Positions 29,449 to 42,633 of a stretch of DNA of 64,000 nt are shown in pieces. Source of the stretch: an uncultured Stenotrophomonas sp. (lineage in GTDB: Bacteria > Pseudomonadota > Gammaproteobacteria > Xanthomonadales > Xanthomonadaceae); assembly GCA_913775725.1 (NCBI GenBank), contig CAJYNG010000009.1, forward strand, positions 124,001 through 188,000. The letters run 5' to 3'. The notes below the pieces were generated by a model that was not told where the DNA came from, ran no database searches, and worked only from the letters and a program-made list of their open reading frames with translations. The first letter of the stretch is position 1. Every line of letters begins with the position of its first letter. A program made the translations under genes and the position numbers.

Positions 29449-30016
29449 GCTCACTCTCGTAGCGTTCGATTTCAGGGACACGGCCCAACAGATACCCCAA
29501 CTGGTCGACACCTTCCAGCAGGCAGGTCTGCGAGAAGCCATCCAGCGGGAAGGAATAGACGCGGCCATCCGGAGTGCGCAGTTCGCGCGCAGCCACGTCG
29601 ATGGTCAGCTCGTCGTCCGGGCGCTGCATCAGCGCCTGCACGTCGGCCTCGTCCAGCACGATCGGCAGCAGGCCGTTCTTCAGCGAGTTGCCGCGGAAGA
29701 TATCGGCGATCTCGCTGCTGACGATGGCGCGCAGACCGAGGTCGGTCAGCGCCCACGGTGCATGCTCGCGCGAGGAGCCGCAGCCGAAGTTGCGACCCGC
29801 CAGCAGGATGCTGCGGCCGGCGTTGTGTGGCTGGTTGAAGGCGAAGTCGGCCACCGGCGAACCGTCGGCCTGCCAGCGCCAGTCATTGAAGGCGTTGCGC
29901 CCCAGGCCGGCGCGTTCGGTGGTGGACAGGAACCGCGCCGGAATGATCTGGTCGGTATCGATGTTGGTCTGCGCCAGCACCACGCTGGACGAGGTCAGGG
30001 TACGGAAACCGGCCAT
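29438..30016 (-). CDS. leuD: 3-isopropylmalate dehydratase small subunit
   Basis: Small subunit of isopropylmalate isomerase, 192 residues. It shows the family's N-terminal [19 protein letters not shown], the swivel-domain loop [21 protein letters not shown], and [22 protein letters not shown]. Its ATG overlaps the leuC stop as ATGA and its own end overlaps leuB, which gives strict co-translation of leuC-leuD-leuB. It assembles with LeuC to interconvert 2- and 3-isopropylmalate. Confidence 0.97.
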
Positions 30017-31434
30017 CACGCCACCGCCTGTGCGAACAGCTCGCGGGTATCGGCGACATGCCCATTCACTGCGGCCCACGCCGCGCTCATCGGCGAGGCC
30101 AGCAGCGTGCGCGAACCGGGGCCCTGGCGGCCTTCGAAGTTGCGGTTGCTGGTGCTCACGGCCAGCTGGCCGGGAGCGACCAGATCGCCGTTCATCGCGA
30201 TGCACATCGAACAGCCTGGCTCGCGCCACTCCGCTCCGGCCGCGCGCACGATCTCATGGATGCCCTCTGCCTCGGCCTCGCGCTTGACGATCTCCGAGCC
30301 CGGCACCACCAGCATGCGCACCCGGTCGGCGACGCGACGACCGCGCAGCACCTGCGCCACTTCGCGCATGTCACTCAGCCGGCCGTTGGTGCACGATCCG
30401 ACGAATACCACGTCCACCGGTGTGCCGGCCAGCGCCTTGCCGGCCTGGAAATGCATGTAGTCCAGGCCCTTCTGTGCGGCCGCATCGTTGGCTGCGGGAA
30501 TCGGTGCATCCACCGCGATGGCGGTGCCCGGATGGGTGCCCCAGGTCAGGGTCGGGCGGATGTCGGCGGCGTCGATGTGGACTTCGCTGTCGAAACGCGC
30601 GCCCTCATCGCTGCGCAGCTGCTGCCAGCGTGCGACGGCGGCGTCGAAATCGGCGCCCTTCGGCCCGCGCGGCGTAGCGGCGACGAAGTCGAAGGTGACC
30701 TGGTCCGGCGCCACCATGCCGGCACGCGCACCGGCTTCGATCGACATGTTGCACAGGGTCATGCGCTGTTCCATGTCCATCGCTTCGATGGTGCTGCCAC
30801 GGAACTCGATCACGTGGCCGGTGCCGCCATTGACGCCGATCACGCCGATGATATGCAGGACCACGTCCTTGGCGCCGACGCCAGGAGCCAATGGGCCGTC
30901 AACGGTGATGGCAAAGGTCTTCGCCTTGCGCTGCAGCAGGCACTGCGTGGCCAGCACGTGGCCGACTTCGCTGGTGCCGATGCCGAACGCCAGCGAGCCG
31001 AAAGCACCGTGGGTAGAGGTGTGGCTGTCGCCGCAGACGATGGTCATGCCCGGCTGGGTGAAGCCCTGCTCGGGCGCGATCACGTGGACGATGCCGCGGT
31101 TGTCCGAGGCCATGTCGAACAGCTCGATGCCGTGCTCGGCGCAGTTGCGCGCCAGCGTGGCGACCTGTGCTTCGGAGGCGGCGCTGGCATAGGGCAGCGT
31201 GCCGTCAGCGGCGGCCGGCAGGGTCGGCGTGGAGTGGTCCATCGTCGCCTTGGTGCGGTCCGGGCGGCGCGGCGATAGGCCGCGCTCGCGCAGCTCGGTG
31301 AACGCCTGCGGCGAGGTCACCTCGTGGATCAGGTGCAGGTCGATGTACAGCACGGCGGGGGCGCTGTCGGATTCGGGAACCACCACGTGGGCGTCCCACA
31401 GTTTGTCGTACAGGGTGCGGGGTGCGGAAGTCAT
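30016..31434 (-). CDS. leuC: 3-isopropylmalate dehydratase large subunit
   Basis: Aconitase-family large subunit, 472 residues, carrying the 4Fe-4S cluster. Visible are the N-terminal [38 protein letters not shown], and the three cluster cysteines: one in [13 protein letters not shown] and two in [14 protein letters not shown]. The C-terminal [22 protein letters not shown] is also conserved. The start at 31434 gives the expected length. A 60-base gap separates it from the methyltransferase gene upstream, so an extra promoter is possible here. Confidence 0.97.
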
Positions 31435-31494
31435 GCGTATGCCTGGCAGAAGTACGAAATAGCGAACATCATTAAAGAAAGCGGAACGGTCAAG
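31435..31494 (-). promoter_or_regulatory. Candidate internal promoter before leuCDB
   Basis: This 60-base gap is clearly richer in A/T than its surroundings. On the minus strand it reads ttgacc, then 17 bases, then gatgtt, resembling -35 and -10 boxes. It is the only sizeable non-coding gap between leuA and leuB. No experimental support. Confidence 0.3.
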
Positions 31495-32274
31495 TCAGTG
31501 ACGGCGGGCGAGCACGCGCAGTCGCACGTAGTCGGCCAACGGCTGGCCGGCGGCATTGCGCGGCAGCTCGGCCAGCAGCGCGGTGGCGGCTTCGCGCACG
31601 GTGGCGCGTGCCTCGGCGGGCAGGTCGTCCAGCAGCGGTGCGGCGAATACCCGCAGCCAGCCGGCCACACCGGTCGGCAGCGCGGTCGGGCGCGGCGTGC
31701 ACTCGATCAGTTGCACCTGGAAGCCATGCTGGCGCAGGCGGTCGGCATAGGCATCGGCCGTTGGGAAGTACCACTGGAAGGCGCTGGCGCCGTGGCCGTG
31801 AGCCACGCGTGCGGCCTGCACGGCGGCAATGATGGTGGCGACGTTGCCATGGCCGCCGAACTCGGCGACGAAGCGGCCACCGGGGCGCAGCGCGCGGCGC
31901 ACGCCTTCCAGCACGCGGTCCGGCGTGCCCATCCAATGCAGTGCCGCGTTGCTGAACACCGCATCGAACTCGCTGTCGAACGACAGTGCGTGGCCGTCCA
32001 TCACCTGGGCATCGACACCGCGCGCGCGGGCGGCGATCACCAGTTCCGGCGAGGCATCCACGCCGTGGATGCGCGCACCGCTCAGGGCCAGTTCGGTGCT
32101 GAGTACGCCATCGCCACAGCCCAGGTCGAGGATGCGTTCACCGGCGCGCGGGTCGAGCAGGCGCGATACTGCGCCGCCGAGCAAGGGCACAAAGCCGGCA
32201 TCGATCGCATAGTCCTGGGCATTCCACTGCTGGCCAGCGGCGCTGGCCGGGGTGGGGGTGTCGAAGGCGCTCAT
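31495..32274 (-). CDS. SAM-dependent methyltransferase, trans-aconitate 2-methyltransferase-like, inside the leu operon
   Basis: A 259-residue class I methyltransferase. The SAM-binding motif is ERILDLGCGDGVLSTELA, followed by the acidic VDASPELVIAARAR, then DAVFSNAALHWMGTPDRVLEGVRRALRPGGRFVAEFGGHGNVA. The NAALHWM and FGGHGN motifs match Tam/trans-aconitate-type enzymes acting on small carboxylic acids. The start ATG at 32274 is 10 bases after the leuA stop, and leuC follows. It is therefore embedded between the enzymes making and isomerising isopropylmalate. The yeast relative Tmt1 methylates 3-isopropylmalate; a similar substrate here is an attractive inference. Confidence 0.85.
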   Translation of the reverse strand: MSAFDTPTPASAAGQQWNAQDYAIDAGFVPLLGGAVSRLLDPRAGERILDLGCGDGVLSTELALSGARIHGVDASPELVIAARARGVDAQVMDGHALSFDSEFDAVFSNAALHWMGTPDRVLEGVRRALRPGGRFVAEFGGHGNVATIIAAVQAARVAHGHGASAFQWYFPTADAYADRLRQHGFQVQLIECTPRPTALPTGVAGWLRVFAAPLLDDLPAEARATVREAATALLAELPRNAAGQPLADYVRLRVLARRH

Positions 32275-32284
32275 GGCAGGTTCC

Positions 32285-33867
<1,583 letters not shown>

Positions 33868-33871
<4 letters not shown>

Positions 33872-34959
33872 AGGGAAATCTCCTCGACAGCGGGTGCGAC
33901 GGCTTGCAGGGGGGAAGGGGAAGAGGTGGGAGAAACGATGGCGCTGGCCTTGCCGGGCGAGCGCGGTGTTTCGCTGCGCCGTCGCCGCGGTTTGCGTGGC
34001 GGGCGCGGGCGGATGTCGGTCAGCAGGCCGGCCAGGACACCGGCATCGATATTCCCGCCGGACACCACCGCGCATTTGCGGCGGCCGGAAACGCGGCGGC
34101 CGGCGGCCAATGCCAGCGCACCGGCGCCCTCGGCGATGATGTGTTCTTCCAATGCCAGCCGCACCAGGGTTTCGCGCAGCTCGGCTTCGCGCACGATCAC
34201 CACATCGTCCAGCAGCGAGGTGCACAGGCGGCGGGTCAGGAAGCCGGGGATCTTCACCCGCACGCCATCGGCCAGCGAGGCCGCAGGTGCGATCTCGCGG
34301 ACATCGCCGCGGATCGCGCGCGCCATCGAGTCAACGCCTTCCACCTGTGCACCCACCACGCGCACGCCCTGTGATTTCAGCGCCAGGGCCACGCCGGAGG
34401 CCAGGCCACCGCCGCCGATCGGCACGATCACCACGTCAGGGGCATGCGCGGCCAGTTCGATGCCGACCGTGCCCTGGCCGGCGATCACGTCGGCATCATC
34501 GAACGCGGACAGGAAGCGGTAGCCGTGGCGCTGCGCCAGTTCGACCGCGAAGGCGTAGGCCTCGTCGTAGCTGTTGCCGTGCTGGCGCACGGTGGCGCCC
34601 CAGTGGGCGACGCCGGCGATCTTGGTGGCGGGTGCGCCATGCGGCATCACCGTGATGGCCGGTACGTCCAGCCGATAGGCCGCCCAGGCCACGCCCTGGG
34701 CATGGTTGCCTGCCGAAGCGCAGATCACCGGCCGGGTATCGCCACGTTCACGGCCGGCGAGCAGGGCGTTCAAGGCGCCGCGCACTTTGTAGGAACCGGT
34801 GCGCTGCAGGTTTTCCAGCTTCAGCCAGGTGCCGAAGCGCTCAGCATGGTGCAGCGGGGTAGGCGGCAGGAAGCGGCGCAGTCGGGCCTGCGCCGCCAGT
34901 ACGTCGGCGACGCTTACGTCGCCGACATCGCTTTCCTGGCTGGCATCAGCGGCCGGCAT
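33868..34959 (-). CDS. ilvA: Threonine dehydratase (deaminase), short form without ACT-like regulatory domain
   Basis: PLP enzyme making 2-oxobutanoate from threonine for isoleucine, here 363 residues. Catalytic core: [15 protein letters not shown], the PLP lysine in [27 protein letters not shown], the phosphate-binding [14 protein letters not shown], and EGAGALALA. The roughly 150-200 residue C-terminal regulatory region of E. coli-type IlvA is absent. In its place is a basic, Pro/Ser-rich tail ([12 protein letters not shown]...). I use ATG 34959; ATG 34992 is the alternative. Translation appears linked to an upstream coupled small frame and to leuA downstream by overlap. Confidence 0.9.
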
Positions 34960-35059
34960 GGGCCACCAGCGGGGGGCAGGCGACCACCGCATGCGGGCAC
35001 GGGCGGCGAAGAAGACGCCTCCGTACCGGCACCGTGGTCACTACGGTACGGGTGTTCAT
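34946..35059 (-). CDS. Coupled 37-codon small frame between ilvM and ilvA, Thr/Val-rich
   Basis: An ATG at 35059 overlaps the ilvM stop as ATGA and has a strong AAGGAG seven bases upstream, inside ilvM. The frame reads MNTRTVVTTVPVRRRLLRR and continues to a TGA at 34948-34946, thus covering the whole ilvM-ilvA gap and overlapping the ilvA start. Four Thr and four Val fall in the first twelve residues. Inside it an inverted repeat CCGTACCG/CGGTACGG can form an 8-bp stem. It could be a translational relay to ilvA or an intra-operon leader peptide. It is not a known protein family, so it may simply be a chance frame. Confidence 0.45.
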   Translation of the reverse strand: MNTRTVVTTVPVRRRLLRRPCPHAVVACPPLVAHAGR

Positions 35060-35307
35060 ACGGATGCTCCTTCCACGGCGGTGACCTGCACGGACACGCA
35101 GTCGTAGATCTTCTCGATCTGCCGGCACAGCGTTTCCGCCGGGCGCTGGCCATCCACCACCAGCTGCAGGTGCCAGCGGCCATCGTCGGCGTCCACCGGC
35201 GCACCGCTGATCGCACGCGGCGCGAAGCCACGACGCTCGGCCATGCCGATCACGCGCAGCAGCGCGCCTTCGGCCGGGTGCAGCACCAGGTCAAGCCGGT
35301 ATTGCAT
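35056..35307 (-). CDS. ilvM: Acetolactate synthase II small (regulatory) subunit
   Basis: An 83-residue ACT-domain protein of the IlvM type: MQYRLDLVLHPAEGALLRVIGMAERRGF, then a second half RWHLQLVVDGQRPAETLCRQIEKIYDCVSVQV. It binds and activates the catalytic subunit IlvG. The ATG at 35307 lies inside the end of ilvG (17-base overlap), and its stop overlaps the next small frame. The short length matches IlvM rather than the two-domain IlvH. Confidence 0.92.
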   Translation of the reverse strand: MQYRLDLVLHPAEGALLRVIGMAERRGFAPRAISGAPVDADDGRWHLQLVVDGQRPAETLCRQIEKIYDCVSVQVTAVEGASV

Positions 35308-37027
35308 TGGGGGTCTCCTGGCGGGCGTGGGCGGGATTGCTTTCCAGCATCGTGCTGTTGGCGGTGTTCGGCGGCACCAGTGGCCACACGTTGGCGCGTG
35401 CATCGATGGCCACGTGCAGCAGGGCCGGGCCCGGCTCGGCCAGCAGCGCGGCCAGGCCGCCTTCCACGTCGTCGCGGTTGTCGATGCGGGTGGCGGCGAT
35501 GCCGAACACCTGCGCCAGTGCCACGAAGTCCGGGTTGTCGGACAGGTCGATCTCGCTGTAACGCTCGGCGAAGAACAGTTCCTGCCACTGCCGCACCATG
35601 CCCAGCGAACTGTTGTCCAGCAGCACGATCTTCACCGGCAGGCGGCAGCGGGCGATGGTCGCCAGCTCCTGCACGTTCATCATGAAGCTGCCGTCGCCGG
35701 ACACCAGCACCACGGTGCGCTCCGGGCAGGCGAACTGCGCACCCATCGCCGCGGGCAGACCGAAGCCCATGGTGCCCAGCGCGCCACTGGTCAGGTGGTT
35801 GCGCGGGTGGTTGAAGCGGCAGTGCTGGGCCACCCACATCTGGTGCTGGCCGACATCGCAGGCGATCACCGCATCGGCCGGGGCCAGCTCGCTCAGGCGC
35901 TTCAGCAACGCCGGTGCGTAGATGTGCTGGCCCGGTGCATCGTAGCGTGCAGCGAAGCGATCGCGGTGCTGCGCGCAACGCTTGCGCCATGCGTCCTGGT
36001 GGGCCCTGGGGGAGGGGAAGGCCGCACGCAGGGCGCGGATGGCGTGACCGACATTGCCAGGCACGGCGACGTCGGCACTGCGCAGCTTTGAGATCTCGTA
36101 GGCGTCCGCATCGATGTGGACGACGCGGGCGAACGGTGCGAACTCGGCCAGCTTGCCGGTGGCACGGTCGTCGAAGCGTGCACCCAGCACCAGCAGCAGG
36201 TCGCTTTCCTGCACGGCCATGTTGGCCGCGCGGGTGCCGTGCATGCCCAGCATGCCCAGCGACTGCGGATGACTGGCCGGCAGTGCACCCAGGCCGCGCA
36301 GGGTCATCACGGTGGGGATGGCACTGGCCTCGACGAAGTCACGCAGGTCCTGTACCGCATCACCCAGCGCGATGCCGCCACCGGCGTAGACCACCGGCTT
36401 CTCGGCCGCCGCCAGTGCGGCAATGGCCTCGGCGATGGCGGCCTCGGCCGGCGCCGGCGGCGGTTCGACGCTGCTGGGCACATGGGCCGGCAGATGGCTG
36501 GCATCGGCCAGCTGCACATCCTTGGGCAGGTCGATCAGCACCGGGCCGGGACGGCCCTCGCGGGCGATGCGGAACGCATCGGCGACCACGCGCGGCAGGT
36601 CATCGACGCTGCGCACCAGCCAGCTGTGCTTGACGATCGGCATCGTCAGGCCGAACACATCCAGCTCCTGGAAGGCGTCGGTGCCCAGCAGCGGCGTGCC
36701 GACCTGGCCGGTGATGCAGACCATCGGTACCGAATCCAGCATCGCATCGGCAATGCCGGTGACCAGGTTCGAGGCGCCCGGGCCGGAGGTGGCCACGCAG
36801 ACGCCCACCTGGTTGCTGGCGCGGGCGAAACCATTGGCGGCCAGCGCCGCGCCCTGCTCATGGCGTACCAGGATGTGCTTCAGCGACGAATCCACCAGCG
36901 CGTCGTAGAACGGCATGATGGTGCCACCGGGATAGCCGAACAGCGTACGGACGCCTTCGGCCTCCAGCGCCTGGGTCAGCCAGCGCGCGCCGTTGGGCGG
37001 CGCGCTGCGATGTGTCGAAGAGTTCAT
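35291..37027 (-). CDS. ilvG: Acetolactate synthase large subunit (IlvG)
   Basis: ThDP- and FAD-dependent acetohydroxyacid synthase, 578 residues, condensing pyruvate with pyruvate or 2-oxobutanoate. Visible: the catalytic Glu region GVRTLFGYPGGTIMPFYDAL...RHEQGAALAANGFARA, VCVATSGPGASNLVTGIADAM, the FAD domain LVLGARFDDRATGKL, and the ThDP-magnesium motif GDGSFMMNVQELATIARCRLPVKIVLLDNSSLGMVRQWQ. The ATG at 37027 is preferred; a frame 5 codons longer exists. It follows ilvC after 38 bases in the attenuated ilv-leu operon and pairs with IlvM. Confidence 0.96.
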   Translation of the reverse strand: MNSSTHRSAPPNGARWLTQALEAEGVRTLFGYPGGTIMPFYDALVDSSLKHILVRHEQGAALAANGFARASNQVGVCVATSGPGASNLVTGIADAMLDSVPMVCITGQVGTPLLGTDAFQELDVFGLTMPIVKHSWLVRSVDDLPRVVADAFRIAREGRPGPVLIDLPKDVQLADASHLPAHVPSSVEPPPAPAEAAIAEAIAALAAAEKPVVYAGGGIALGDAVQDLRDFVEASAIPTVMTLRGLGALPASHPQSLGMLGMHGTRAANMAVQESDLLLVLGARFDDRATGKLAEFAPFARVVHIDADAYEISKLRSADVAVPGNVGHAIRALRAAFPSPRAHQDAWRKRCAQHRDRFAARYDAPGQHIYAPALLKRLSELAPADAVIACDVGQHQMWVAQHCRFNHPRNHLTSGALGTMGFGLPAAMGAQFACPERTVVLVSGDGSFMMNVQELATIARCRLPVKIVLLDNSSLGMVRQWQELFFAERYSEIDLSDNPDFVALAQVFGIAATRIDNRDDVEGGLAALLAEPGPALLHVAIDARANVWPLVPPNTANSTMLESNPAHARQETPNAIPA

Positions 37028-37065
37028 GGGGGAACCTTGCAAAGCGGGTGGGGGAGGCCGCGTGG

Positions 37066-38040
37066 TTACGCGGCCTGTCCTTGCAACCAGACCATCTTGG
37101 CGCGCAGTTCCTTGCCCACCTTTTCTATCGGGTGCTCCAGGTCGGCCTGCTTGAACCTGTTGTAGTTCGGCAGACCCGCTTCGTACTCGGCCACCCAGTT
37201 CTTGGTGAAGGTGCCGTCCTGTATGTCCTTCAGCACCTCCTTCATACGCGCCTTGGTGCCGGCGTCGATCACGCGCGGGCCGCTGACGTAGTCGCCGTAC
37301 TGCGCGGTCTCGGAGATGAACTCCAACATGCGCGAGATACCGCCTTCATAGAACAGGTCGACGATCAGCTTCAGTTCGTGCAGCACTTCGTAATAGGCGA
37401 TCTCCGGCTGGTAGCCGGCTTCGACCAGGGTCTCGAAACCGGCCTGCACCAGCGCCGAGGCACCGCCGCACAGCACCGCCTGCTCGCCGAACAGATCGGT
37501 CTCGGTCTCTTCCTTGAACGTGGTCTGGATCAGGTTGGCGCGGGCGCCGCCGAGGCCGGCTGCATAGGCCAGGGCGTACTCGGCCGCCTTGCCGCTCTTG
37601 TCCTGGTAGACCGCCCAGATGCACGGCACGCCACGGCCGATTTCATACTCGCGACGCACCAGCGCGCCGGGGCCCTTGGGTGCGACCAGCACGACATCGA
37701 GGTCCTCGCGCGGCTTGATCATGTCGAAGTGCACGTTCAGGCCGTGCGCGAACAACAGCACCGCACCCTGTTTCATGTTCGCAGCCAGCACGTCGTCGTA
37801 GAGCTTCTTCTGCACCATGTCCGGCGTCAGCACGGCAACCAGGTCCGCATCCTTCACCGCATCGGCCGGTGCTTTCACGGTGAAGCCATCGGCCTGTGCC
37901 TTGACCTCGGTCGGGCCACCCGGACGCAGGCCTACCACCACGTCGAAGCCGGATTCGCGCAGGTTCAGTGCGTGGGCGCGGCCCTGGCTGCCGTAGCCGA
38001 TGACGGCGATCTTGGTCTGGGGCAGGTCGTTGGTGCTCAT
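37066..38040 (-). CDS. ilvC: Ketol-acid reductoisomerase
   Basis: Class I acetohydroxyacid isomeroreductase, 324 residues, NADPH- and Mg-dependent. Motifs: [22 protein letters not shown] (dinucleotide fold), [37 protein letters not shown], and the C-terminal KARI knotted domain with [47 protein letters not shown]. It is the first gene of the operon. The strong aaggaacc segment precedes ATG 38040, and the terminator arm of the second attenuator lies only 26 bases before the start. Confidence 0.97.
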
Positions 38041-38065
38041 GGGGGAGGTTCCTTGCGGTGGGAAG

Positions 38066-38104
38066 AAAAAAGAACGGCCGGTCGTCGAGGTGACGTGCCG
38101 GCCG
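38066..38104 (-). terminator. Second ilv attenuator: terminator hairpin directly before ilvC
   Basis: On the minus strand a CGGCCGG..CCGGCCG stem (38098-38104 with 38075-38081) is continued by an inner CGTC/GACG pairing and followed by TTCTTTTTT (38066-38074). The 5' arm overlaps the last codons and stop of the Thr-rich leader frame. The segment GGCACGTCACC (38089-38099 on plus as ggtgacgtgcc) can instead pair with GGTGGCTGTGCC upstream (38145-38156), which would break the terminator. This is the expected antiterminator switch. Confidence 0.8.
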
Positions 38105-38105
38105 G

Positions 38106-38207
38106 TCAGGGGAAAGCGGTGGGGGAGGCGCCATACGTCGCACAGGCACAGCCACCACGAGGCGTTGTGGTGGTGCTGGTCCAGGTTTTGAAGTTGGCGT
38201 TGCTCAT
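38106..38207 (-). CDS. Thr-rich 33-codon leader peptide frame before ilvC
   Basis: Reads [19 protein letters not shown] and ends at TGA 38108-38106. Six Thr codons fall between codons 8 and 15, with four consecutive. These codons (ACC ACC ACA ACG) sit in and next to the 5' arm of a perfect hairpin CCACCAC-aacgcctc-GTGGTGG (38152-38158 with 38167-38173 on plus), the layout of a pause hairpin. A terminator follows at once. No strong ribosome-binding site is visible before the ATG. Read as a leader, it would sense charged tRNA-Thr, the substrate branch of IlvA in the same operon. This is inference; it is the second of two leaders. Confidence 0.65.
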
Positions 38208-38239
38208 GGTGGTTGCGTCTGAAACCAGGTCCTGAAATG

Positions 38240-38271
38240 AAAAAACCCGCACCTGGGCGGGTGCGGGTTTT
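38240..38271 (-). terminator. First ilv attenuator: rho-independent terminator
   Basis: On the minus strand CCCGCACC (38260-38267) pairs with GGTGCGGG (38246-38253) over a 6-base loop and is followed by TTTTTT (38240-38245). The same GGTGCGGG also occurs within the upstream leader peptide frame (plus 38312-38319 as cccgcacc), so CCCGCACC has two exclusive partners: antiterminator or terminator. Confidence 0.88.
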
Positions 38272-38295
38272 GATGAGTTCCGGTGTGTTTGTTGC

Positions 38296-38424
38296 TTACA
38301 CGCTGGCTCGTCCCGCACCTGTTGGTTGGGTAATAAGTACGAGCACAAGAATCGAACGCAGCGAGGCGGCGCCGGTGTCGGCGGCTTCGATGTGGGTTCG
38401 CGGTGGCGTGTTGTGATGCAACAT
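38296..38424 (-). CDS. ilvL: Branched-chain leader peptide IlvL (42 codons)
   Basis: Minus-strand frame from ATG 38424 to TAA 38298-38296. The end of the peptide reads SLRSILVLVLITQPTGAG: codons 25-31 are Ile-Leu-Val-Leu-Val-Leu-Ile, followed by Thr. This is the signature of an attenuation leader sensing Ile, Leu and Val tRNA charging. Region 1 (GCTCGT over codons 27-29; plus 38339-38344) pairs with ACGAGC (plus 38306-38311), which belongs to region 2 together with GGTGCGGG; region 2 can pair with the terminator's 5' arm. All four classical attenuator segments can be placed. There is no Shine-Dalgarno before the ATG, and the candidate promoter places transcription start only a few bases upstream. 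Confidence 0.8.
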   Translation of the reverse strand: MLHHNTPPRTHIEAADTGAASLRSILVLVLITQPTGAGRASV

Positions 38425-38432
38425 GTGATCGA

Positions 38433-38461
38433 GAGAAACACAGCCGTTTCGGAGATGTCAA
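38433..38461 (-). promoter_or_regulatory. Candidate ilv operon promoter
   Basis: On the minus strand a perfect -35 box TTGACA (plus 38456-38461) is followed after 17 bases by TTTCTC (plus 38433-38438), a weak -10. Transcription would start near 38426, only two to three bases before the IlvL ATG at 38424. This predicts a nearly leaderless start. Confidence 0.5.
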
Positions 38462-38710
38462 CCCTGGCAGCAGATATTTTTTTGGTTTCCGTTGCATCCG
38501 GCGCAATCGCTTGTGGCACAAGGATGGTTTCCAGCGAAAGTGTTTCGGTGAACCCGAATTCACTCTTTTCGGTGGGTTTTTTGCGCGGGAATGAGGGGCT
38601 GTTGTGTCCGCTCCCGCCGGGATCTCAAGGCGCCCATGACCTCTGCCCGATACCGCGTGAAGGCCGCAGCGGCGAAGATCGGGGAACCACCCTTCCATCG
38701 GAACCCGACC

Positions 38711-40429
38711 GTGTCCCGACGCCTTGCCCGTTCCCTGCTTGCCGCCGCCGTGCTGGCCACCGTGCCCGCACAGTCCTTCGCCGCCGACCGAATTACCGGC
38801 CATACCTTCGCCACCCGTTCGGAGGTGATCGCCCCGCATGCGATGGCCGCCACCTCGCAGCCGCTGGCCACCCAGATCGCGCTGGACGTGATGAAGGGCG
38901 GTGGCTCGGCGGTGGACGCGGCGATTGCCGCCAATGCCGCGCTTGGCCTGATGGAGCCCACCGGCAACGGCATCGGCGGGGACCTGTTCGCCATCGTCTG
39001 GGACCCGAAGACGCAGAAGCTCTATGGCTACAACGGCTCGGGCCGCTCGCCGAAGTCGCTCACCCTGGCCGAGTTCCAGCGCCGTGGCCTGAAGGACATC
39101 CCGGCCACCGGCCCGCTGCCGGTCTCCGTGCCTGGCGCGGTCGACGGCTGGTTCGCACTGCACGACCGCTTCGGTCGCAAGCCGATGGCCGACAACCTGG
39201 CGCCGGCCATCCGCTACGCCCGCGAGGGCCACCCGGTGGCCGAAGTGATCGCCTACTACTGGGACCGCTCGGTGCCCAAGCTGTCGCAGTACCCGGGCTT
39301 CAAGGAGCAGTTCACGATCAACGGCCACGCCCCGCGCAAGGGTGAAATGTGGAAGAACCCGAACCTGGCCAGCACGCTGCAGAAGATCGCCGATGGCGGC
39401 CGCGACGCCTTCTACAAGGGAGACATCGCCCGCACCATCGGCGACTACTTCAAGGCCAATGGTGGCTACCTGAGCTACCAGGACATGGCCGATCACCATG
39501 GCGAATGGGTCGAGCCGGTCAGCAGCAACTACCGCGGCTACGACGTGTGGGAGCTGCCGCCGAACAGCCAGGGTATCGCCGCGCTGCAGATACTCAACGT
39601 GCTGGAAGGCTACGACTTCACGAAGATCCCGTTCGGTTCACCGGAGCATGTGCACCTGTTCGTTGAAGCGAAGAAGCTGGCCTTCGCCGACCGTGCACGC
39701 TTCTACGCCGACATGGCGTTCCAGCCGGCACCGGTGCAGAAGCTGATCTCCAAGGAATACGCCGCGCAGCGCCGCGCGCTGATCTCGATGGACAAGGCGT
39801 TGAAGGAAGTGCAGCCGGGTACGCCGAAGCAGCTGGAAGAGGGCGACACGATCTACATGACCGTGGCCGACGCCGACGGCATGATGGTGTCGCTGATCCA
39901 GTCCAACTACCGTGGCATGGGCAGCGGCATGGCACCTCCCGGGTTGGGCTTCATCCTGCAGGATCGTGGCGAGATGTTCGTGCTGCAGAAGAACCATCCC
40001 AACGGCTACGCACCGGGCAAGCGTCCGTTCCAGACCATCATTCCGGCGTTCATCACCAAGGGCGGTAAGCCGTATGCCAGCTTCGGCGTGATGGGCGGCG
40101 CGATGCAGCCGCAGGGTCACGCGCAGATCGTGATGAACCTGGTGGACTTCGGCATGAACCTGCAGGAAGCCGGTGATGCACCGCGCATCCAGCACGAAGG
40201 CTCGACCGAACCGACCGGGCAGGCCACGGCGATGACCGACGGTGGTGAAGTGAATCTTGAAACCGGCTTCCCGTATGAAACGGTGCGTGCGCTGATGCGC
40301 AAGGGGCATCGCATCGTGTTTGCCGACGGCCCGTATGGCGGGTACCAGGCGATCATGCGCGATCCGGAGACCGGGGTGTATTACGGTGCGTCGGAGAGCC
40401 GCAAGGACGGGCAGGCGGCGGGGTATTGA
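38711..40429 (+). CDS. ggt: Gamma-glutamyltransferase (periplasmic, glutathione hydrolase)
   Basis: Ntn-hydrolase that cleaves gamma-glutamyl bonds of glutathione and related amides, 572 residues as a proenzyme. A signal peptide (SRRLARSLLAAAVLATVPAQSFAAD) begins right after the GTG at 38711, my preferred start; ATG 38636 is an in-frame alternative that would add a non-signal stretch. Family motifs: HAMAATSQPLATQIALDVMKGGGSAVDAAIAANA, NGIGGDLFAIVWD, and the autoprocessing/nucleophile Thr at about residue 380 in EEGDTIYMTVADADGMMVS. GGMGSG-type (here RGMGSGMAPPGLGFILQDRG) and GVMGGAMQPQGHAQ follow. It is divergent from the ilv operon. Confidence 0.93.
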   Translation: MSRRLARSLLAAAVLATVPAQSFAADRITGHTFATRSEVIAPHAMAATSQPLATQIALDVMKGGGSAVDAAIAANAALGLMEPTGNGIGGDLFAIVWDPKTQKLYGYNGSGRSPKSLTLAEFQRRGLKDIPATGPLPVSVPGAVDGWFALHDRFGRKPMADNLAPAIRYAREGHPVAEVIAYYWDRSVPKLSQYPGFKEQFTINGHAPRKGEMWKNPNLASTLQKIADGGRDAFYKGDIARTIGDYFKANGGYLSYQDMADHHGEWVEPVSSNYRGYDVWELPPNSQGIAALQILNVLEGYDFTKIPFGSPEHVHLFVEAKKLAFADRARFYADMAFQPAPVQKLISKEYAAQRRALISMDKALKEVQPGTPKQLEEGDTIYMTVADADGMMVSLIQSNYRGMGSGMAPPGLGFILQDRGEMFVLQKNHPNGYAPGKRPFQTIIPAFITKGGKPYASFGVMGGAMQPQGHAQIVMNLVDFGMNLQEAGDAPRIQHEGSTEPTGQATAMTDGGEVNLETGFPYETVRALMRKGHRIVFADGPYGGYQAIMRDPETGVYYGASESRKDGQAAGY

Positions 40430-40458
40430 GGTTTCCCGGCCACCGGGCTGAGCCCCCT

Positions 40459-40699
40459 CTGCGGTGGTGGCAGTGATACGGGGCTTGGCCGGGCGGGTGG
40501 GCTGGTCGGGGGACGCCGTGAATCCGTCCCTGGAGGCTTGGCAGCCGCTTGCTCGTGTGCGCTGTCCTGCGCACACGGCAAGACCGGGGTTGGGCATCCG
40601 GCCCAACCCGCCCGAGGCATGCCTCGGGCACATGCGGCTGACACCCCCGCCCAGCCCACCCGCCCGGCCTCTGACAGTTTTCTGCGGCCGCCACCGCAG
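40459..40699. repeat. Long nested inverted repeat downstream of ggt
   Basis: Outer arms ctgcggtgg (40459-40467) and ccaccgcag (40691-40699), and inner perfect 18-bp arms ggccgggcgggtgggctg (40487-40504) and cagcccacccgcccggcc (40653-40670). Between them are smaller palindromes such as gttgggcatccggcccaac and gaggcatgcctc. The transcript of either strand could fold into one large branched structure. Confidence 0.7.
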
Positions 40700-40755
40700 G
40701 AAGAAAAAAGAAGATCAAAAGCAACAGCAACAGCAACGCCCGCGTGCTGATGGTT

Positions 40756-40796
40756 GGGGTCGGATCCGTTTTCCGCAGGAAAACGGATCCGACCCC
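40756..40796. repeat. GGGGTC-type palindromic repeat, copy 1
   Basis: ggggtcggatccgttttcc and ggaaaacggatccgacccc form a perfect 19-bp stem around gca. Three related copies occur at 42815, 59880 and 63339. Confidence 0.85.
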
Positions 40797-40863
40797 TTCT
40801 TGTTTTCCGATACACCTCATCCACGCATGGCGTGGAAAACCCACCGTCACACGGAAACTGTCG

Positions 40864-40974
40864 GGGGTGGGGCGGCGTGGGCTGGCAGGACCGTTGGCGC
40901 CATGGATGGCGCCATCGAGCCCCCAAGGATGGGTTTACGGCGTGACCTGCCAGCCCACACCGCCCCGCCAAACC
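40864..40974. repeat. Imperfect long hairpin repeat
   Basis: Arms ggggtggggcggcgtgggctggcagg (split: 40864-40889) and cctgccagcccacaccgccccgcc (40946-40969) pair with few mismatches. Inside is a perfect small palindrome ggcgccat/atggcgcc (40896-40913). It shares the GGGCTGG/CCAGCCC core with the neighbouring long inverted repeat. Confidence 0.65.
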
Positions 40975-41055
40975 AGCAGCAACCCAGAGCCGCTTTTGAA
41001 GTTGCCGTTGCCGTTGCTTGAGAAAAGCGGTGCAGCCGCAGGCTGCAAAACCCCC

Positions 41056-42633
41056 TCAATCCTGATCGTGCGCGCGCGCTGCCTCCGCCTGGGTCTCCTC
41101 CTGCGCCGCCATCTCGCGTGCGATCCACGCATCGATCATGTGCCGCTGGCGCTGCGCCTGCCGCCGCTCCCGCGTGTACTCCTGGTCCAGTACCCGATAC
41201 AGCGACACCATCACCAGCACCATCAGCAGCGCGAACGGCAACGCCGCTATCGTGATCATCCCCTGCAGCGCATCCAGACCGCCGGCCAGCAGCAATGCAC
41301 CAGCAATCAGCGCCACGCCCACGCCCCAGGCCAGCTTGCGCTTGGGGGGCGGATCGCCGGCTTCATCGGTGGACATGCTGGCCAGCACCAGCACCGCCGA
41401 GTCGGCCGAGGTCACGAAGAAGATCATCAGCAGCACCAGCGCGATGCACGACAGCAGCAACGGTAGCGGCATGCTGTCGAACATGGTGAACAGCACCGTC
41501 TCATAGCCATTGCCCAGTGCCTGCAGCAGGTCGGCCTGACCGAAGATCTGCATCCAGATCGCGGTGCCACCGAATACCGAGAACCAGAAGAAGCCCAGCA
41601 GCGTCGGTGCCAGCACCACGCCGATCACGAACTCGCGCACGCTGCGCCCGCGCGAGATGCGCGCGATGAACGAACCCACGAACGGTGCCCAGGAGATCCA
41701 CCACGCCCAGTAGAAGATCGTCCAGTCGGCCACCCAGGTGCTGGACGAGAACGGCGACATGCGCAGGCTCATCGTCACCAGCTGGTTGAGATAGGAGCCC
41801 AGCGTGGTGGTGAACGTGTTGAAGATCGCACCGGTCGGGCCGAGCACGAGGACCAGCAGCAACAGCACGGCGGCCAACGCCAGATTGAAATTGGACAGCC
41901 ATTTGACGCCACGGTCGACGCCGCTGAGCGTGGAGGCCATGTACAACACGAACGCCACCGCAATGATCACCAGCTGCAGCGGAGCACCTGCGTGCAGGCC
42001 GAACACGCGCTCCATGCCGGCGGCGATCTGGATGGTGCCGAAGCCCAGCGTGGTGGCCACGCCAATGGCAGTGGCAACGACTGCGGCAATGTTGACCACA
42101 CGGCCGATCCAGCCACGATGGTGGCGGCCGATGATTGGCTGCAGCATGTCGCTGACCAGGCCACGGCCGTTGCGGTTGAACTGAAACCAGGCCATTGCCA
42201 GGCCGATCAGCGCATAGATGGCCCAGGGGTGCAGGCCCCAATGGAAGAACACGTAGCGCATGGCGGCACGCGCAGCGTCCATGCTTTCAGGTGCCAGCCC
42301 TTCCGGTGGCTTGCTGAAGTGCGAAATGGGCTCGGCGGCGCCCCAGAACACCAGGCCGATACCCATGCCAGCGGCGAACAGCATCGACATCCAGCTGGCC
42401 CGCGAGAACTCCGGTTCGGCGTCTTCGCCACCGATGCGCAGGTTGCCGAAGCGGCCGAAGGCCAGGTACATCAGGAATACCAGAGCCAGGAACACGACCA
42501 GCAGGTACAGCCAGCCGATGCCGCGGATGAGTTCACCGAGGATGCTCTGCACCACGGTATTGAAGGGGCCGGGTGCAACACCGGCGAGCAGCACCAGCAG
42601 CAGAACCAGTGCAATGGAAACGCGAAACACCAT
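41056..42633 (-). CDS. BCCT-family transporter (betaine/choline/carnitine type)
   Basis: A 525-residue inner-membrane carrier of the betaine-carnitine-choline transporter family, which imports quaternary ammonium compounds by sodium or proton symport. Twelve helices are readable. Hallmarks: MLFAAGMGIGLVFWGAAEPISHF near residue 90, FHWGLHPWAIYALIGLAMAWF, and the signature WWISWAPFVGSFIARISRGRSVREF. A charged cytosolic tail of about 45 residues (REMAAQEETQAEAARAHDQD) could be an osmosensing or regulatory extension. The ATG at 42633 gives the family N-terminus. Substrate cannot be assigned; glycine-betaine and choline are usual. Confidence 0.92.
   Translation of the reverse strand: MVFRVSIALVLLLVLLAGVAPGPFNTVVQSILGELIRGIGWLYLLVVFLALVFLMYLAFGRFGNLRIGGEDAEPEFSRASWMSMLFAAGMGIGLVFWGAAEPISHFSKPPEGLAPESMDAARAAMRYVFFHWGLHPWAIYALIGLAMAWFQFNRNGRGLVSDMLQPIIGRHHRGWIGRVVNIAAVVATAIGVATTLGFGTIQIAAGMERVFGLHAGAPLQLVIIAVAFVLYMASTLSGVDRGVKWLSNFNLALAAVLLLLVLVLGPTGAIFNTFTTTLGSYLNQLVTMSLRMSPFSSSTWVADWTIFYWAWWISWAPFVGSFIARISRGRSVREFVIGVVLAPTLLGFFWFSVFGGTAIWMQIFGQADLLQALGNGYETVLFTMFDSMPLPLLLSCIALVLLMIFFVTSADSAVLVLASMSTDEAGDPPPKRKLAWGVGVALIAGALLLAGGLDALQGMITIAALPFALLMVLVMVSLYRVLDQEYTRERRQAQRQRHMIDAWIAREMAAQEETQAEAARAHDQD

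Follow-up and report, generated by a model that had tools for sequence, protein, structure and literature searches.

Proposed serial checkpoints in the leader of a Stenotrophomonas ilvC operon: a branched-chain attenuator and a terminator that translation may relieve

The leader of the ilvC operon in an uncultured Stenotrophomonas sp. contains two units in series, each composed of a short ORF and a terminator. In our preferred reading, to which we assign a probability of roughly 55%, the units form two successive checkpoints: an attenuator governed by the branched-chain amino acids (unit 1) and a terminator that would act unless its own leader frame, ORF2, is translated (unit 2). Both lie on the minus strand of the window, the 64,000-nt stretch of DNA that was analyzed, upstream of ilvC (37066–38040), the first gene of an ilvC-ilvG-ilvM-ilvA-leuA operon that was annotated with NCBIfam and Pfam (the ilvM match falls under the NCBIfam cut-off and over the Pfam ACT cut-off). 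A preliminary description of this DNA had proposed two serial attenuators, one for Ile/Leu/Val and one for Thr. The existence of two serial units is borne out by their folds, with a z-score of −4.5 for unit 1, equaled by none of 200 shuffles, and of −2.5 for unit 2, equaled or bettered by 2 of 200.

The comparison covered relatives at three taxonomic scopes, with IlvC found in 91/91 same-genus genomes, 177/247 family genomes and 35/35 genomes of genus g18, which was taken as Xanthomonas. We fetched 160 stretches upstream of ilvC, among which 88 of the 90 remaining genomes of the genus are represented, and also used 24 of 80 named loci; the final set comprised 178 loci, the window counted in and seven duplicates dropped. 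The pattern for the Ile/Leu/Val (ILV)-rich core of leader 1 matched 145 of the 178, and four further leaders (L059, L075, L088 and L225) were recognized by eye. In several of the pattern-less loci that were read, another gene apparently ends just 5′ of ilvC, with no leader between them. The ORF2-bearing loci were divided into five groups under names of our own, based on peptide endings and loci: maltophilia (which holds the window), MTR (to which L207 and L213 were reassigned), nit, Xanthomonas, and others.

Unit 1 fits a real, ordinary ribosome-mediated branched-chain attenuator, judging from its sequence and from modeled folding. The leader 1 ORF (38296–38424; MLHHNTPPRTHIEAADTGAASLRSILVLVLITQPTGAGRASV, then the stop) contains, as the preliminary description had stated, seven consecutive Ile/Leu/Val codons (38332–38352) followed by Thr (ATT CTT GTG CTC GTA CTT ATT ACC; ILVLVLI-T), and an antiterminator arm, GGTGCGGG (38312–38319); terminator 1 lies at 38240–38271 (−20.0 kcal/mol). 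A simple terminator scan gave two sites, compared with a mean of 1.1 in shuffles, and both listings correspond to terminator 1. A ribosome stalled on the Ile/Leu/Val codons would free GGTGCGGG to capture CCCGCACC, allowing the polymerase to pass terminator 1; without such a stall, the polymerase would halt there. Unit 1 occurs in related genera too.

These alternatives were evaluated with a footprint model, in which a ribosome is placed at each codon in turn, the RNA that it does not cover is folded, and the capture of the terminator arm is scored. Capture was compared with that in dinucleotide shuffles at 107 loci (3 of them duplicates), with ranks given out of 60, and per-codon profiles were read for 21 loci. 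In the model, a ribosome that has not yet moved past the Ile/Leu/Val codons leaves the 5′ arm of terminator 1 captured; at the next codon, capture drops from its plateau in all 21 profiles. For the 43 maltophilia-group loci, capture was 0.63 as compared with 0.35 in shuffles, with a median rank of 1; the excess was also seen for MTR (0.66 and 0.47), nit (0.57 and 0.51), Xanthomonas (0.71 and 0.58) and others (0.62 and 0.47), with the median ranks in these four groups being weaker (5, 17, 12 and 10). The modeled profile is less clean than that of a textbook attenuator: some loci (e.g. L014, L206 and L050) regain part of the capture farther downstream, and ribosome-free capture is at least 0.5 in 15 of the 21 loci, the window scoring 0.01.

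The geometry of unit 1 is likewise familiar. Measured to the first G-C pair of the terminator, which is 3′ of it, the spacing from the leader 1 stop is 26–29 nt in 124 of 144 loci, and A-U pairs can shorten it by a few nucleotides. Unit 1 thus shares with attenuators of the ilvL/leuL type the run of Ile/Leu/Val codons, the alternative hairpins and a terminator mostly 26–29 nt past the leader stop, and differs from them in that the leader 1 ORF apparently has no 5′ untranslated stretch. The −35-like TTGACA hexamer named in the preliminary description is in place (38456–38461, minus strand), and a simple promoter scan found no promoter-like site. In 139 of 144 loci, the leader 1 ATG is 30–31 nt 3′ of a TTGACN hexamer, so that leader 1 may begin at the first transcribed base, that is, the message may be leaderless, with transcription starting at or beside the ATG.

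As regards unit 2, the spacing between the leader 1 stop and ilvC is bimodal, being either 98–171 nt or 238–350 nt. After deduplication, 38 of 145 leaders are short and 107 are long; none of the 38 short leaders contains a second hairpin below −9 kcal/mol, and an ATG-started ORF follows terminator 1 in 105 of the 107 long ones. ORF2 and the second hairpin, whose absence from relatives had been named beforehand as grounds for rejecting the two-unit proposal, are therefore conserved. In the window, ORF2 occupies 38106–38207 (33 residues) and has no Pfam match. The 89 Stenotrophomonas leaders comprise 75 long and 14 short ones; in genus g18, all 23 pattern-bearing leaders are long, as are L075 and L225 by eye. 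Being present in many leaders and missing from others, unit 2 is widespread yet dispensable. That it is a repeated element was ruled out, the closest match to it elsewhere in the genome having an E-value of 0.23. The 14 short Stenotrophomonas leaders (e.g. L023 and L012), in which ORF2 and terminator 2 are jointly missing and unit 1 stands directly before ilvC, provide natural controls for studying what unit 2 does. TTG-started equivalents of ORF2 were recognized by eye in L061 and L062. The L062 frame stops at the hairpin base; the L061 frame reads through a hairpin that has a U tract and ends in overlap with the ilvC ATG, an arrangement that suggests translational coupling.

In the long leaders, ORF2 spans 32–44 codons, the exception being L224 (X. 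bromi) with a stop at codon 24. The maltophilia-group frames are 99, 102, 108 or 114 nt long, and their flanks vary by any number of nucleotides; since the length of any ORF is bound to be divisible by three, the informative part is that the frame keeps ending at the same hairpin. The base bias per codon position is alike across the five groups. Heterozygosity in the maltophilia group is 0.218, 0.160 and 0.109 at codon positions 1, 2 and 3, respectively, and this heavier load of substitutions at the first two positions indicates a hypervariable peptide rather than a conserved one; a conserved ORF2 peptide was ruled out on this basis. Between groups, the peptides differ strongly. These patterns bear on a reading in which ORF2 encodes a functional small protein and terminator 2 is a back-up for a leaky terminator 1. 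Such a reading would agree with conservation of the ORF and needs no additional mechanism, but the excess of variation at codon positions 1 and 2 and the great differences between group peptides argue against it, and it leaves the placement of the stop at the terminator unexplained; we consider it very improbable. The ORF2 Shine-Dalgarno sequences are weak or absent, with group means from −2.6 to +0.3 kcal/mol as compared with −5.2 to −5.7 for ilvC; one locus of the last group reaches −5.1. A two-codon frame, ATGACATGA (ATG ACA TGA), overlaps the ORF2 start in 23/23 Xanthomonas-group loci (e.g. L077 and L223–L242) and in 3/7 other loci.

Terminator 2 (38066–38107), which overlaps the ORF2 stop, consists of a hairpin at 38107–38072 (−19.8 kcal/mol) and six T at 38071–38066. 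The gap from it to the ilvC ATG (at 38040) is 25 nt. The simple terminator scan, which has a loop limit of 8 nt, misses it. A search made independently of ORF2 required a hairpin below −10 kcal/mol with 5 or more T among the 8 nt that follow; it avoids the bias of the other stop-to-hairpin offsets, obtained from a hairpin search centered on the stop. This search found a U-tract terminator in 88 of 104 ORF2 loci (maltophilia 43/43, MTR 14/14, nit 17/18, Xanthomonas 8/22 and others 6/7), leaving 14 of the 22 Xanthomonas-group loci without a good U tract. In 88 of these 88 loci, the ORF2 stop is at the hairpin, either overlapping it or no more than 3 nt away. The register differs between groups, with the stop at the 5′ base of the hairpin in maltophilia, in the loop in MTR and nit, and at the 3′ end in Xanthomonas and others. 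The registers (hairpin base, loop, past the hairpin) provide a natural series for testing the relationship between stop codon and terminator.

A translation-gated terminator is favored by the retained frame and placement of its stop, and by the joint absence of ORF2 and hairpin 2 from the short leaders. Terminator 2 would fold by default, and a ribosome translating ORF2 to its stop, at or inside the hairpin, would cover the hairpin and let the polymerase reach ilvC; the act of translating ORF2 would count and the sequence of the peptide would not. We infer that ORF2 may be translated, that terminator 2 may work in the cell and that the control may have this sign. One study in E. coli (PMC4824070) reports that termination efficiency fell from ~90% to <10% when a stop codon was brought closer to a terminator, from 28 to 5 bp upstream of it, that uncoupling of translation abolished this repression of terminators by stop codons, and that maximal termination needs roughly 27–30 nt between stop and terminator. 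Terminator 1 is near this distance from its stop and terminator 2 is well inside it, from which we infer that translation of ORF2 would relieve terminator 2.

Several observations stand against the gated terminator. According to the same study (PMC4824070), a terminator can be efficient even within the first 100 bp of a coding region; since terminator 2 starts 86–112 nt past the ORF2 start (21 loci), the ribosome may often arrive too late, barring a polymerase pause or fast initiation. The weak ORF2 Shine-Dalgarno sequences, the loss of the U tract in the Xanthomonas group and the early stop of X. bromi also count against it, as do the two points in favor of Thr stalling considered below, a formable helix and a slight excess of capture in the MTR group.

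The retention of ORF2 by the Xanthomonas group despite its weak U tract would be accounted for if unit 2 were mainly Rho-dependent, with untranslated C-rich RNA loading Rho, translation of ORF2 shielding it and hairpin 2 being secondary. The ORF2 region is indeed C-rich and G-poor (C 0.36–0.48, G 0.23–0.26). However, the C and G contents of leader 1 are similar, and all but one of the 75 Stenotrophomonas ORF2 loci retain a U-tract terminator (43/43, 14/14 and 17/18), which makes a mainly Rho-dependent unit 2 unlikely in our estimation.

The preliminary description had interpreted unit 2 as an attenuator of the classic type: the stalling of a ribosome on the Thr codons would make an antiterminator available, and terminator 2 would thereby be blocked. 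Its sequence elements are present in the window: Thr codons 12–15 of ORF2 (ACC ACC ACA ACG; 38163–38174), the CCACCAC/GTGGTGG match, and the proposed pause/antiterminator arm GTGGTGG..GTGCC (38145–38158), which can pair with 38099–38089 in most of the 36 distinct maltophilia-group sequences. The covariation check that had been suggested yielded one probable compensatory event, with GTGCC:GGCAC replaced by GTACC:GGTAC in four of the 36. Thr is enriched in ORF2 over stop-free shuffles in all five groups (22.6 vs 10.8% in maltophilia, 9.4 vs 6.9% in Xanthomonas), as is Ala, and the operon encodes a threonine dehydratase. Yet the run of Thr codons is not kept in relatives: among the 36 sequences, the longest run is one in 3, two in 17, three in 5 and four in 11, and it is mostly one or two in the other groups. 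Thr columns are as variable as the rest (mean heterozygosity 0.32 vs 0.35).

The footprint model also argues against Thr stalling in the maltophilia group, where capture of the terminator 2 arm with the ribosome at codons 8, 12 and 15 (0.54, 0.38 and 0.54) is below that in shuffles (0.66, 0.65 and 0.63), even though the antiterminator helix itself can form. MTR-group capture slightly exceeds that in shuffles with the ribosome at codon 8 (0.78 vs 0.69; median rank 15 of 60) or 12 (0.74 vs 0.69; median rank 10 of 60) and is comparable to the unit 1 scores in some groups; in nit, Xanthomonas and others, it is about the same as in shuffles. As unit 1 itself ranks only 5–17 of 60 outside the maltophilia group, the test has low power there. 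Finally, the ORF2 stop abuts or lies inside terminator 2, unlike the stop of leader 1, and this position predicts the opposite sign of control, with translation relieving termination and Thr stalling permitting it: a ribosome stalled at codons 12–15 would remain >50 nt short of terminator 2 and would not keep it from folding. The classic Thr attenuator is accordingly not supported for unit 2, and we regard it as improbable.

If unit 2 is a translation-gated terminator, the two units could jointly operate as an AND gate, with ilvC reached only when the end products are scarce and ORF2 is smoothly translated, Thr being required above all; we advance this extension tentatively and consider it doubtful. 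By avoiding Ile, Leu and Val, the ORF2 of most Stenotrophomonas would remain translatable when branched-chain amino acids are scarce; a shortage of Thr, the substrate of the dehydratase, would shut the operon through the Thr-rich stretch. The leader would then contain two ribosome sensors in series with opposite signs, the first gate opening on a stall and the second on smooth translation. Cells could thereby tell whether the products in particular are short or starvation is general, which a single attenuator does not reveal. The combined Ile, Leu and Val content of ORF2 is 1.2, 1.0, 6.4, 13.6 and 3.9% in the maltophilia, MTR, nit, Xanthomonas and others groups, respectively, as compared with 13.9, 11.0, 10.8, 14.3 and 7.5% in stop-free shuffles and 16.5–22.8% in five genes of the window; because the ORF2 sequences are related, the codon-depletion ranks are non-independent tests. 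This depletion, the Thr enrichment and the condition of the dehydratase are in favor of the AND gate. The operon threonine dehydratase (33868–34992, minus strand) has a PALP domain only by Pfam, and Thr_dehydrat_C has no match anywhere in the genome of the window, with matches in 5 of 14 control genomes. Against it are the enrichment of Ala, the lack of Ile/Leu/Val depletion in Xanthomonas, and the absence of Thr_dehydrat_C from 106 of 119 family genomes, some of which are without unit 2; a tie between unit 2 and the missing regulatory domain of IlvA was checked across the family genomes and not found.

Avoidance of Ile, Leu and Val among single-step codon variants looked supportive with kappa 3 in frame 0 alone. 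At kappa 2, frame 0 of the maltophilia group has 5 such variants vs 11.2 expected, and frame 1 has 3 vs 9.2; in nit, frame 0 has 3 vs 10.8, the deficit being smaller in frames 1 and 2; the MTR 120-nt set (6 sequences) has 2 vs 2.3 and Xanthomonas 11 vs 15.8. With the frame controls, this mutation-based evidence is equivocal. By the same logic of avoidance, the Xanthomonas ORF2, where the U tract is often missing too, would not be translatable under branched-chain starvation.

The preferred arrangement, an attenuator in series with a translation-gated terminator, has known counterparts in serial leader ORFs (mgtCBR) and in translation-relieved terminators (pyrBI). The signal for pyrBI of E. coli is UTP, sensed via polymerase pausing. 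Its leader ORF extends into or past the terminator, and a close ribosome blocks the hairpin (PMC4824070, in part); an ORF ending at, in or past the hairpin is likewise what all 88 U-tract loci display. Unit 2 differs from pyrBI in that it is located behind an amino-acid-specific attenuator and encodes a hypervariable peptide. The mgtCBR leader of Salmonella likewise contains two short serial ORFs, mgtM and mgtP, that read different signals, and here too each of two serial leader ORFs is associated with a control structure. According to PMC3641672, the tandem mgtCBR attenuators are a singular example; they serve other genes and signals and act independently and additively, whereas unit 2 is predicted to be a serial gate.

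Searches for earlier accounts found no paper on attenuators or leader peptides in Stenotrophomonas, and none on this leader was noticed among the matches listed. The part of PMC2965389 that was available has a single mention of Xanthomonas (rpsL) and none of ilv. An Rfam search of window positions 30000–42000 yielded no match at gathering thresholds. Proteobacterial attenuators were reportedly surveyed by Vitreschak and colleagues in 2004. Farther along the minus strand, between leuA and leuC, an ORF at 31495–32364 resembles SAM-dependent methyltransferases by eye.
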